Assembly (NCBI GenBank): GCA_001314905.1
Contig: LJZT01000012.1
Coordinates: forward strand, 1-64,000
Source: Phormidium sp. OSCR
GTDB taxonomy: Bacteria; Cyanobacteriota; Cyanobacteriia; Cyanobacteriales; Geitlerinemataceae
Length of the DNA stretch: 64,000 bases
Direction of reading: 5' to 3'
The notes beneath the pieces are model-generated. The model had not been told where the DNA came from. It was given only the letters and a program-made list of their open reading frames with translations, and made no database searches. Shown here piece after piece: positions 43,624-49,309 of this stretch (the stretch's first letter is position 1; each line of letters opens with the position of its first letter). A program made the translations under genes and the position numbers.

Positions 43624-45624
43624 TTACTCGGATGGTGATCCCGGTAAAACTTCAAAAATGAAGAGAGTTTCTTCCTCACTGGGGAAGTGAAAACGCTCTT
43701 GCAACTGGTTCCCTGGAGTTTGGCATTGTTCGCCTACGCAAAGGACATAGTCTAGGGGGGGTGAGAGGGTTAACATGGCATCTTCGAGGGTATCAAATGT
43801 TTGACTAGGGAAATTGCGGCGATGGGGTTCATCCATACAAATAGATTGAAACCTAACTTGGGGAAGATGTAGGAAATAGTAGTGCAGACGAGTGGAACTT
43901 TCGGTGAAAAAGCCAACTCGACTTCCCTCTGGGAAAAATTCAGCCAGGATTTTGAGTCGTTCATCACCATGATATTTTTCGGCAAAGTAGAGGCGATCGC
44001 GTCCCCAGTCACCCTGCACCCAGTCACTTGATTTTAGATCCCAATTAGTTGGGCGATATCCCTTAAGAACTAGAGCATCAAGATCATACAGAGAAATATA
44101 GAATAGATTCAAAATTGCCACACTTGAAATTAAGTAGTAAACAATGAGTTCTTGCTTGTATGTTTTTATAAACCGAGGCAAGCTATTAGCGACACAAGCT
44201 CCTGAACAAGCAAAAAACAGCAAAAGCATTCTTATTTTTGTTGGTGACCAAGTTGATGTAAAACAAAATATGACTAAAAATAAAAGTAACGTGTAAGCTA
44301 AATTTCTACTAAATAAAGTTCGATTCCAAACATTCATAAAAATACAAGGAATCAGGACAAGAACCCCCAATAAACCAAAGCTACTAAACCCTTGATGGGT
44401 TATCAAAGATAAATGAAAGATTCTTGATCCTTGTAAACCAGCATCCCCGAATACTGGATGAAATAGTATTTCATAGATTCGCTCTAAAATATCAAAAAAT
44501 CCAAAAAACTCATTAACTTTTTCTTTTGGAATAGGTGTTGAATCGATAAATTCAAATGAGAAACGAACAAAATTAGCTATTCCTCCACGAATTCCGTCTT
44601 GATTTTTGTGAAAATCAACAAATCCAGGAGGCCCTGACCAAGTCCCCCAAATAATATGATTGTAAATGAACAGCCAAATTTGAGACATAACGCCTAAAGG
44701 AACTATTGCAGCTAACCACCAATACCAATTTTGACGAATTTCACTTAACCAAATTTTAATCCCATATTTTTTAATCAAGGATAAACCATAAAATATTATA
44801 AATGGAAATGCAAATGCCAAGAAGGTTGTTTTAGCAGCCAGCCCAAATAGCAGTCCTAATACAAGCAAAAACAAGTTTTTAGATGTCGGAGATTTTAGTA
44901 GCTTATCAACAACTAAAAGACAAAAAATAGCTGCTGACGCAGTAAAAACATTATTTTTAGCTACCCACCCTTGAAAAATTAACTGGGGAATGCTTGCTAT
45001 GGTAAAGGCAACGGCTACCGATAGCCTCTCAGAAGCATACTTCCGAGCTAAAGCATAATTCCCTGTTACAATTACAAGATAGGCTAGAAAACTAAAAAAG
45101 CCCCCACCGATATCTGTATTAAAACGCAAGAAAGCATGAGGTAAAATGTCAGAACCAACAGGAAAAACCGCATGGTGTACTTTGCATACATTATCTAAAA
45201 AGAGGCTATTTTGGCTCTGGTAAATAAAAACTCTTGGAAAATGATAGGTTAGCACATCACCAGTGTTTTGAGGGAAAACGATAGATTTGATACCCAGGTA
45301 TAGTAAAGGTATAGCAGTAAAACAGGATAAAAAAGGTCTAGATGAAATAAATGATATGATTTGCTTTGCTATGACTTTTGTTTTTTGTTTGTTAGCCCAA
45401 ACAACCCCCATCATTACAAATACTAGGGGGATCTCCATCAAAAAAGAAGCCTGAGAGATATTAACTAAAAAAGATAACTGAAAAATAAAAGACAGGCTGA
45501 TTATAGCTAGATTAATGCCAAAAGCGATTGATGTAGATAAGCGATTTTTGTAATCATAAACTAGCAACGTAAAGCCACAACAGAGAAAACAAATTTCAAT
45601 TAAAGAAAAAAGTATTAACCACAT
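43624..45624 (-). CDS. GT-C type membrane glycosyltransferase-like protein 1
   Basis: A 666-residue protein with about 12 membrane helices. The pattern is that of the GT39/ArnT group: a first large loop with the acidic-type DVLTYHFPRVFIY motif, the stretch VGSDILPHAFLRF, and a soluble C-terminal domain with QGDWGRDRLYFAEKYHGDERLK. It is clearly paralogous to the 669-residue protein at 47300-49309 over its whole length. The two flank a sulfatase gene on the same strand. Such enzymes move sugars from lipid carriers to surface glycans or proteins. The donor and acceptor are unknown. Confidence 0.75.
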   Translation of the reverse strand: MWLILFSLIEICFLCCGFTLLVYDYKNRLSTSIAFGINLAIISLSFIFQLSFLVNISQASFLMEIPLVFVMMGVVWANKQKTKVIAKQIISFISSRPFLSCFTAIPLLYLGIKSIVFPQNTGDVLTYHFPRVFIYQSQNSLFLDNVCKVHHAVFPVGSDILPHAFLRFNTDIGGGFFSFLAYLVIVTGNYALARKYASERLSVAVAFTIASIPQLIFQGWVAKNNVFTASAAIFCLLVVDKLLKSPTSKNLFLLVLGLLFGLAAKTTFLAFAFPFIIFYGLSLIKKYGIKIWLSEIRQNWYWWLAAIVPLGVMSQIWLFIYNHIIWGTWSGPPGFVDFHKNQDGIRGGIANFVRFSFEFIDSTPIPKEKVNEFFGFFDILERIYEILFHPVFGDAGLQGSRIFHLSLITHQGFSSFGLLGVLVLIPCIFMNVWNRTLFSRNLAYTLLLFLVIFCFTSTWSPTKIRMLLLFFACSGACVANSLPRFIKTYKQELIVYYLISSVAILNLFYISLYDLDALVLKGYRPTNWDLKSSDWVQGDWGRDRLYFAEKYHGDERLKILAEFFPEGSRVGFFTESSTRLHYYFLHLPQVRFQSICMDEPHRRNFPSQTFDTLEDAMLTLSPPLDYVLCVGEQCQTPGNQLQERFHFPSEEETLFIFEVLPGSPSE

Positions 45625-45737: not shown

Positions 45738-47202
45738 CTAGGCAGACCAACCCTGTTCTAGCATCTGTTGGTGTTGAGCGACGATCGCCTGAGCTTCGGG
45801 ACGTTCAGCAATGTTAACCGTCTCACCTGGGTCTTCAACATGGTCATATAACATCCGCGCCCAGACCCCCCCCATCATCATTTTTCCACTCGGTATATCG
45901 ATAGCGATCGCTCTTAACAGAATACCCTCCGTTGTAATAACTAAAAACGGCTTCTTTCCAAGGTAAGTTAGGATTGTCTAATAGAGGGACAAAACTGCTG
46001 CCCTCTAAATGCTCTGGTTTCTCTAACCCAGATAAATCACAGAGAGAGGGATAAATATCTACAAACTCCACTAACGCATCTGTCCGTTGTCCCGCCGGGA
46101 TTCCTGGCCCTCGAACAATCATCGGCGCGTGTAGCGAGGTTTCAAAGTTAGCGTGTTTGCACCACAAGCCATGTTCTCCGAGTTGCCAGCCATGGTCTCC
46201 CCAGAGAATGACAATAGTATTATCCGCGAGTTCCAGGCGATCGAGGGCATCGAGAATCTGCCCGACCAGGGCATCAGCGTAACTGGTGGCGGCGTAATAG
46301 CCGTGAATCAAATTCAGGGCCATCTCATCGGATAGACGCCCCTCAGCCGGAACCCCATAATAATTGCGCAGTTCTCCCCAATTATGCAACGCCGCATCGG
46401 GCGCACCAGCAGGACGAAAGGGGTTATCCGCAAGGCTGAGGTTTTCCCGTTGATAGAGGTTCCAATAGGGAGTTGGAGAGTTAAACGGGAGATGAGGGCG
46501 AAAGAGTCCAGTAGCCAAAAAGAAGGGTGCGTGACCCTCTTGGAGACGTTCTAAGGTGCGGACGGTGCGATCGGCAATTTGCCCATCGGTGTAGATATTA
46601 TTCGCCACATTGGCCATTTCAAACGGAGGTCCGTAGGTTCCTCCATGGGCTTCAACGATCGCCCGGTTTTCTGGCGTAACATAGGATTCTAGCCCCCACA
46701 TCCCCCGAGGCCGCCAGGGGTCTTCGAGCCAACTGTCCGCGTCATCCTGAATGACGTGATAGATTTTGCCGTAGGAAATGGTCCGATAGCCCTTGTTCTT
46801 GAACCAGAGAGGTAAACTCGGCTCATTGGGCATATCCTCGTCTTTACGGGCTTCATAATCACTACCGAAACGGGTTGGGGTAGCTCTAGCCCCAGCCAGA
46901 GTACTGGCCCGAGAGGCCCCACAAATTGGAACTTGGCAATAGGCTCGTTCAAAGAGAGTGCCTTCAGCGGCGAGGCGATCGATGTTCGGGGAGACCATCT
47001 CGCTGCGTCCGTAGCAGTTGAGTTGAGGACGTAGATCATCGATGAGTAACACGAGAACATTGGGATAGTTGTCACGACCAATACGACCTCGATTCGGGTT
47101 ATCAGACGTACGGCGATCGCCGCAACCATGTAGAAGATTAACTCCGGCACCAACAGCCGTTGCTGCAACCAGTCCATTAACAAGACGACGGCGGGTAATC
47201 AT
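45738..47202 (-). pseudogene. Sulfatase with one-base frameshift in a G8 tract
   Basis: A sulfatase of the iduronate-2-sulfatase type. A twin-Arg signal with a lipobox-like LLHGC begins it; the metal ligands are DD at 55-56, the formylglycine Cys is C94 in CGASRAS, and WGDHGW carries further ligands. The frame ends early at 45844, but with one G fewer in the tract at 45866-45873 it continues through LYDHVEDPGETVNIA to a stop at 45738, the normal end of the family (487 residues). All catalytic residues precede the slip. The lesion could be real, a phase-variable tract, or a base-calling error. Confidence 0.85.
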
Positions 47203-47299: not shown

Positions 47300-49309
47300 T
47301 CAGAAGTTTTGTGATTGAGGTGGCAAGACTTCAAAAATAATAGTTTCTTCTTGATTTTTGTCAAACCGGAACCGTTCTCTTAACTGTAGTCCAGGACTTT
47401 GACAGATCTCCCCAACGCAAAGGACGTAGTCTAGGGGGGGTGATGTTTTTGCGATCGCCTCTTCGAGAGTTGCAAACTTTTCAACTGGTTCACTCCGCTG
47501 CTCTAAGTCATCCATACAGATCGATTCAAATTCAACCTGAGGTATATGCAAAAAGTAGTAATGCAATCGAGTTAGATTTTGGCTAAAAAAGCCTACTCGA
47601 CTTCCTTCTGGGAAAAACTCTGCGAGAGTTTTTAGTCGTTCATCGCCATAAAACTGGTTGGGGGAATAGAGGCGATCGCGTCCCCAATCACTTTGCACCC
47701 AATAACTATCTCGAATACTTAGTTTTCGAGGATCATGGCTATTTAAAACTGGCAAATCTTGCTCATACAAACAAACATAAAAAAGAATCAAAATAGAAGC
47801 AAGTGATGTTCCCAAAAACAAGAACTTTTTGCCCCTCCTGTTAATTGTGAGCCTATCAAAAAAATTAGACACACAAGGTCCAGAGCAAGCAAAGAAAACG
47901 ACGAGCATCCTAATCTTATAGGCTGACCAAGCCGATGACATACAGAAGATGAATAAAAATGAGATTAATGTTAAGGCTACATTGCGGGGAAATGTTGGTC
48001 GAGTTCGAAGACTCACGAGAATGGCTGGAATGATAACAAGCAAACCAAATGGACCAAATCCACCATGAGACTGATGAGTCCTCCAAATCATAGAGAAGGG
48101 TAGTTTACTTTGTAATGCTGCATCACCAACAATGGGATAAACAATACTATCATAAACAGATTGCAACGCATTTACAACTGAAAAATCTGCGCCTTTCTCA
48201 AGTATAATATGAGTGATATTTAGGAAATCAATAAATTGAAACAAAAAACGGAATAAATTGGCAATTCCGCCCAAAAGACCATCTTGGTTTTTATGAAAGG
48301 CAACAAATCCCGTCGGCCCGGCCCAACTTCCCCAAACGATATGATTATGAATAAACAGCCATAATTGAGACAGTACAAGAATAGGGATTAAGCCGACTAA
48401 CCACCAGTACCAAGATTGTCGAATTTGATCCATCCAGATTCTGATTCCATAGTTCCTCAATACCGATAATCCGAAAAAAATAGTAAACGGCAATAAAAAA
48501 GCCAAAAATGTTGTTTTTGCCGAGAGTCCAAACATCAATCCAAGAATCACTAAAAATAAATTACGGGATGTGGGTTTATCCATGAGTCGACTCACGGCTA
48601 GCAAGCAAAACATCGCCGCAGAAGCTGTAAATATGTTATTTTTAGCAATCCAAGATTGAAGGAAAAACTGGGGTAATCCTGCAATAATCAGACAAACTGC
48701 AAGAGAACCGTTTTCCGACAAATATTTTCTGGATAATGCATAATTTCCAAAAAGAATAGAAAGATAAGCCAAAAAAGAAAACATACCAACACCTATGTCG
48801 GTATCAAACCGTAAAAATAGATGAGGGAGAATATCAGAGCCAACAGGAAAGATGGCGTTGTGCATCTTACACACCTTGTCCAGAAGCAGGCTGTTATGAT
48901 GTTGAAATATAAAAACCCTGGGCAAATGATAGACCAAAACATCCAAGGATTCTTGGGGTGCAATAAATCCTTTGACACCAGCATAGAGGATAGGAACTGC
49001 TGAGACGCTAATCAGGAGCAGGTGTCGCCGATAAAACAAGCCGAAGCTCCGTAATACTTGTTGTACAAAACCATAATTTTTGTAAGTTTTGACAAGAATC
49101 CAAATAGCCAGCAGGATTTCGATCGCAAAAGACAGGTGAGGGCGACCAACTAAAAAAGAGACTTGAAAAATAAATGATAAGAGAATTAATGCCAAGCCAA
49201 GCCCCAAAGATAAAGACTCTGACAAGCGTCGTTCTCGATGATGTAAGAGTAAAAATCCTCCCCAACAAAACAGCAACAGTTCCACAAGGGAGGCAAGACT
49301 ATATAACAT
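47300..49309 (-). CDS. GT-C type membrane glycosyltransferase-like protein 2
   Basis: A 669-residue paralogue of the gene at 43624-45624: identical blocks recur throughout (for example FPVGSDILPH, RFDTDIGVGMFSFLAYL against RFNTDIGGGFFSFLAYL, WGRDRLY, and LDYVLCVGE near the C-terminus). About 12 membrane helices and a C-terminal soluble domain are predicted by eye. The two copies differ at most third positions, so the duplication is not recent. It lies upstream of the sulfatase on the same strand. An envelope glycan-building function is inferred. Confidence 0.75.
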   Translation of the reverse strand: MLYSLASLVELLLFCWGGFLLLHHRERRLSESLSLGLGLALILLSFIFQVSFLVGRPHLSFAIEILLAIWILVKTYKNYGFVQQVLRSFGLFYRRHLLLISVSAVPILYAGVKGFIAPQESLDVLVYHLPRVFIFQHHNSLLLDKVCKMHNAIFPVGSDILPHLFLRFDTDIGVGMFSFLAYLSILFGNYALSRKYLSENGSLAVCLIIAGLPQFFLQSWIAKNNIFTASAAMFCLLAVSRLMDKPTSRNLFLVILGLMFGLSAKTTFLAFLLPFTIFFGLSVLRNYGIRIWMDQIRQSWYWWLVGLIPILVLSQLWLFIHNHIVWGSWAGPTGFVAFHKNQDGLLGGIANLFRFLFQFIDFLNITHIILEKGADFSVVNALQSVYDSIVYPIVGDAALQSKLPFSMIWRTHQSHGGFGPFGLLVIIPAILVSLRTRPTFPRNVALTLISFLFIFCMSSAWSAYKIRMLVVFFACSGPCVSNFFDRLTINRRGKKFLFLGTSLASILILFYVCLYEQDLPVLNSHDPRKLSIRDSYWVQSDWGRDRLYSPNQFYGDERLKTLAEFFPEGSRVGFFSQNLTRLHYYFLHIPQVEFESICMDDLEQRSEPVEKFATLEEAIAKTSPPLDYVLCVGEICQSPGLQLRERFRFDKNQEETIIFEVLPPQSQNF

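Follow-up and report, generated by a model that had tools for sequence, protein, structure and literature searches.

An apparent frameshift in a G8 tract truncates a predicted Tat-exported sulfatase of the mat-type cyanobacterium Phormidium sp. OSCR

The sulfatase gene on the minus strand of the window, a 64,000-nucleotide stretch of contig LJZT01000012.1 of Phormidium sp. OSCR, loses its reading frame at a G8 tract, and the remainder of its coding sequence lies off-frame. We regard this as probably a real frameshift indel, recent and specific to this strain. Comparison with orthologs showed that a tract of G7 would be in frame, while G8 is not. The features of the gene are as follows.

47122..47202, minus strand: N-terminal export signal, residues 1-27, with TRRR, which we take to be a twin-arginine motif, and LLHGC, which we take to be lipobox-like
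46909..46923, minus strand: catalytic C-G-A-S-R motif, residues 94-98, read from the sequence, with C94 and R98 conserved without exception among 45 homologs
46189..46200, minus strand: G-D-H-G metal-site motif, residues 335-338, invariant in 45 homologs and upstream of the lesion
45844..47202, minus strand: truncated sulfatase ORF from the ORF list, 452 aa, ending in KNDDGGGLGADVI and a stop
45866..45873, minus strand (C8 on the plus strand): G8 homopolymer, the point of frame loss, located from the sequence and the ortholog alignment
45738..45865, minus strand: conserved C-terminal coding remainder (starting VWARMLYDHVEDPGETVN), now off-frame relative to the ORF
45738..45740, minus strand: TAG stop of the off-frame remainder, at a site that is a Tyr codon in relatives, whose proteins run a few residues longer (YQI)

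The window ORF is a truncated copy of a member of the PF00884 family. It matched the Pfam profile PF00884 (Sulfatase) with an E-value of 9e-43 and 147.1 bits (cut-off 25) over positions 1-300 of the 301 in the profile, and it is 89-96 % identical to the orthologs of five genomes of the same genus. The C/S-x-P/A-x-R motif and the metal ligands are present: besides C94 and R98, the residues D55, D56, D336, H337 and K349 are invariant in the 45 homologs. The first-pass annotation had placed all active-site residues before the lesion, and the catalytic residues are indeed encoded upstream of the tract. R4, R5 and C27 of the export signal are invariant in alignment A1. Since the N-terminus carries both the twin-arginine motif and the lipobox-like Cys, export is predicted, and the sulfatase is a predicted Tat-exported lipoprotein. 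A role in modifying the cell envelope has been suggested for exported sulfatases in cyanobacterial mats (PMC9723792).

The maturation of the enzyme was considered separately. The Cys of the catalytic motif is the precursor of formylglycine in type I sulfatases. A bona fide FGE was not found in this draft genome, which may lack genes, or in the congeners G001-G006. Those PF03781 paralogs of this genome that were inspected, on contigs C139, C110, C2, C102 and C28 (L224-L228), were without the FGE Cys-pair motif, the best being 39 % identical to a bona fide FGE, and the PF03781 matches of the congeners were weakly similar to true FGE. For anSME (TIGR03942) there was no match over the cut-off in this genome or in the congeners. 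True FGEs adjoin other sulfatases in three more distant relatives. In this genus strong purifying selection acts on a Cys-type sulfatase, yet the genus seems to be without a bona fide FGE or an anSME over the cut-off.

After the G8 tract the ORF reads GLGADVI and then meets a stop, six codons past the tract, and the C-terminus of the family (VWARMLYDHVEDPGETVNIAERPE onwards) is encoded one frame over and reaches the TAG at 45738. When one base is skipped at the tract, the downstream DNA encodes VWARMLYDHVEDPGETVNIAERPEAQAIVAQHQQMLEQGWSA, followed by the TAG at 45740-45738; the stretch encoded in the restored frame includes MLYDHVEDPGETVNIAER. The segment replaced is 42 residues long, and the net gain is 35 residues. 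It had been proposed that a frameshift in the G8 tract truncates the sulfatase and that removing one base restores 35 residues and a stop at 45738, and both statements agree with the present results, five congeners having the gene intact and without the tract. The restored residues had also been described as the exact ending of the family. The off-frame remainder is colinear with the C-termini of the five same-genus orthologs in the alignment, but the ending is not exact: a TAG stands here where the relatives have TAC or TAT and continue with YQI(x), so that the protein would be a few residues short even in the restored frame.

The consequence of the truncation was assessed from an alignment-based AlphaFold model (mean pLDDT 91) of the ortholog from Phormidium willei, in which the gene is intact. 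In this model the strand 446-453 and the helix 468-483 belong to the ordered fold and are confidently predicted, and the truncation would cost the protein both of them, the last strand and the last helix of the predicted fold. The near-invariant residues L451, D457, E460 and N463 (ortholog numbering) are lost in the window ORF. In a set of 80 homologs, drawn from many phyla, 77 extend beyond the point of truncation, almost always via an LYDHxxDPxExxN motif; the three exceptions were contigs or frames running off the end. Solved sulfatases, among the matches listed, align through model residues 479-491. A complete C-terminal subdomain of a type I sulfatase is absent in the window ORF. Because the last strand and helix are lost together with four near-invariant residues, the 452-residue product is probably misfolded, unstable or inactive.

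The genus is Sodalinema, a mat-type cyanobacterium, in which AB48 and similar strains are now placed; the congeners compared include P. willei BDU 130791 and apparently Phormidium yuhuli AB48. The gene is intact in five of the six congeners, at about 487-491 codons, the exception being G001. At the tract site the intact congeners have GATGATGGGTTTGTTTGG, GATGATGGGGTTGTTTGG, GATGATGGGTATGTTTGG or GATGATGGCTTTGTTTGG, with GGGG at most, and the position of the tract in relatives reads GGGTTTGTT, GGGGTTGTT, GGGTATGTT or GGCTTTGTT. The alignment showed no G8 tract in the five congeners or in two more distant orthologs. Since the five congener orthologs are intact without it, the G run is new and belongs to this lineage alone. 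The comparison of tract length in relatives that the first-pass annotation had suggested found the tract in none of them. A second sulfatase was seen in the P. willei assembly (G004) on contig C115 (L229), a contig of apparently high GC, un-cyanobacterial in look and probably contamination.

The lesion shows no trace of age. In the 444 codons that precede the lesion, dN/dS against the closest ortholog was 0.041 (105.5 synonymous and 18.5 nonsynonymous differences), and in the 38 codons after it 0.043 (9 synonymous and 2 nonsynonymous differences). With dN/dS near 0.04 on both sides, the frameshift is either very young or an assembly error; in other words, the frame after the tract was kept until very recently, or is still intact with the eighth G an error. 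An old pseudogene is ruled out by the same ratios, together with the 9 synonymous against 2 nonsynonymous differences after the lesion.

The 4.69-Mb assembly contains 173 G8/C8 positions; base composition would predict 135, and a dinucleotide model fitted to the window 292. The count is about chance level and the tract as such is unremarkable. In a survey of sampled stretches, which gave 89 distinct G/C tracts of at least 8, 60 tracts were internal to an ORF of 120 aa or more and had 40 or more codons to either side. Inspection of the suspicious tracts yielded a single further genuine frame break, which lies at a C9 on contig C12, in a fasciclin-like gene. The remaining apparent frame changes at tracts (L145, L129, L168, L169, L134, L147 and L148) proved on inspection to be gene starts, gene ends or adjacent genes. 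As the sampled tracts are mostly in open frames and there is one other break, long G/C tracts are in general assembled correctly here, and a systematic homopolymer problem was ruled out. The genome is without a visible class of tract-based switches. In the broken fasciclin-like copy (C12:3046-3054; L119 1501-1509) the C9 is lineage-specific and two bases above the relatives, and an intact, 97 % identical copy is found on contig C94 (L245).

The sulfatase gene lies between two paralogous membrane proteins, an arrangement kept in the genus.

47300..49309, minus strand: upstream neighbour, a membrane protein with a weak PMT_2 glycosyltransferase match, paralog of 43624-45624
43624..45624, minus strand: downstream neighbour, a paralogous membrane protein

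The position of the upstream neighbour is kept in the four same-genus genomes in which the sulfatase is intact and its contig is of sufficient length, and also in the sister species G001. Both of these tandem paralogs of approximately 670 aa contain an in-frame run of seven G/C in the same place (43755-43761 and 47434-47440). The complete genome of G001 has a deletion of approximately 2.46 kb at this locus, which removes the GDHG metal-site motif. Sulfatase residues 1-293 are thereby joined in frame to the last ~80 residues of the downstream membrane protein, giving a 365-aa chimeric ORF (locus L189, 8140-8210), and at the deletion junction there is a short sequence common to both sides, all or part of ATGGATGA. 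This loss is independent of the lesion in the window, and the sulfatase is therefore disabled in two of seven Sodalinema genomes. Since the sister species lost it independently by deletion, the exported sulfatase gene is dispensable in the genus.

The comparison shows that substitutions in this lineage turned ancestral GGG-TTT/GTT-GTT codons into a G run. In the mechanism we propose, one extra G was then added to it, most likely by replication slippage, throwing the last 42 codons off-frame. The outcome would be the 452-residue protein without its final strand and helix, probably unstable or inactive. A less likely reading, next in rank, is that the extra G is an error of sequencing or assembly and that the true tract is G7 in an intact gene. 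The low dN/dS of about 0.04, with the frame conserved on both sides, is expected also for an intact gene, and the assembly is a draft of 187 contigs. BLAST-validated singleton frameshifts are moreover expected to be mostly sequencing errors; however, validated ones near 3' ends are likelier to be true indels than those at other positions (PMC3711429), and the position of the present frameshift thus leans to a true indel. Tract-length errors are also uncommon in this assembly, given the sampled tracts lying well inside ORFs and the one other break described above. A different alternative is recoding, in which +1 ribosomal or transcriptional slippage on the G8 would yield some full-length enzyme. 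A peptidyl-tRNA on GGG could slip one base into GTC-TGG with cognate pairing kept. Conserved recoding sites cluster across species (PMC3711429), but no same-genus relative showed the slippery run here, or any frameshift in this position; because the site is not conserved, recoding is unsupported and we consider it extremely unlikely.

The gene had also been suggested to be phase-variable, that is, a contingency locus in which reversible slippage switches the exported sulfatase on and off. A G8 in a conserved gene for a surface enzyme, one base off the in-frame length, is what such a locus would have, and the selection on both sides of the tract is compatible with frequent ON states. A coding G8 also counts as a hypermutable tract, though weakly, chance giving approximately 135-292 such positions per genome. 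The suggestion nevertheless found no specific support: the tract is missing in each of the five congeners with an intact gene and in both of the more distant orthologs, and hence is not kept with varying length in relatives, the G8 positions of the genome are at about chance level and mostly in ordinary ORFs, and in the sister species the gene is simply deleted. The literature searches brought up no account of cyanobacterial phase variation by homopolymers. We therefore hold phase variation to be improbable. Still less probable, in our estimate, is a newborn contingency switch, with the in-frame G run born in this lineage now slipping reversibly and toggling an exported sulfatase that modifies mat polysaccharides within one population. 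The recent frameshift indel remains the preferred explanation. Mutations of the slippage kind are able to revert at the tract itself, but for regulated or selected switching in the present case there is no specific support.

As it stands, the lesion adds another case of a recent slippage mutation (or of a consensus error) to those known in non-essential genes, and it shows that Sodalinema has seen this exported sulfatase disabled repeatedly. A label of functional sulfatase for the window gene is unwarranted in annotation unless the reads are checked. Should a mixture of G7 and G8 prove true, this would be a rare cyanobacterial case of homopolymer phase variation.

The closest known counterparts can be described for both the enzyme and the lesion. 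The best sequence match, with the intact ortholog as the query, was the SulfAtlas S1_7 ulvan sulfatase FA22070 of Formosa agariphila (PDB 6hhm; E=2e-96). Among the matches listed, this structure was also the closest in fold to the Phormidium willei model, with a Z of 52.0 and 40 % identity, the rmsd being 1.5 for 431 superposed residues. The sulfatase gene resembles S1_7, as judged by closeness to 6hhm and not by a SulfAtlas profile. Unlike 6hhm, the window copy is truncated, cyanobacterial and a predicted Tat lipoprotein. With the slipped-strand poly-G contingency genes the locus shares a long G run in an ORF, one base off frame, in the gene of an exported enzyme; it differs from them in that the tract is not conserved in relatives and that G8 is not enriched over chance genome-wide. 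A further counterpart is the class of strain-specific pseudogenes of recent indel origin, which Antonov et al. (2013, PMC3711429) describe as singleton frameshifts; there likewise one genome is affected, the homologs are intact, the frameshift lies at the 3' end and coding is conserved on both sides. Among the features tested here, none distinguishes the present frameshift from these.
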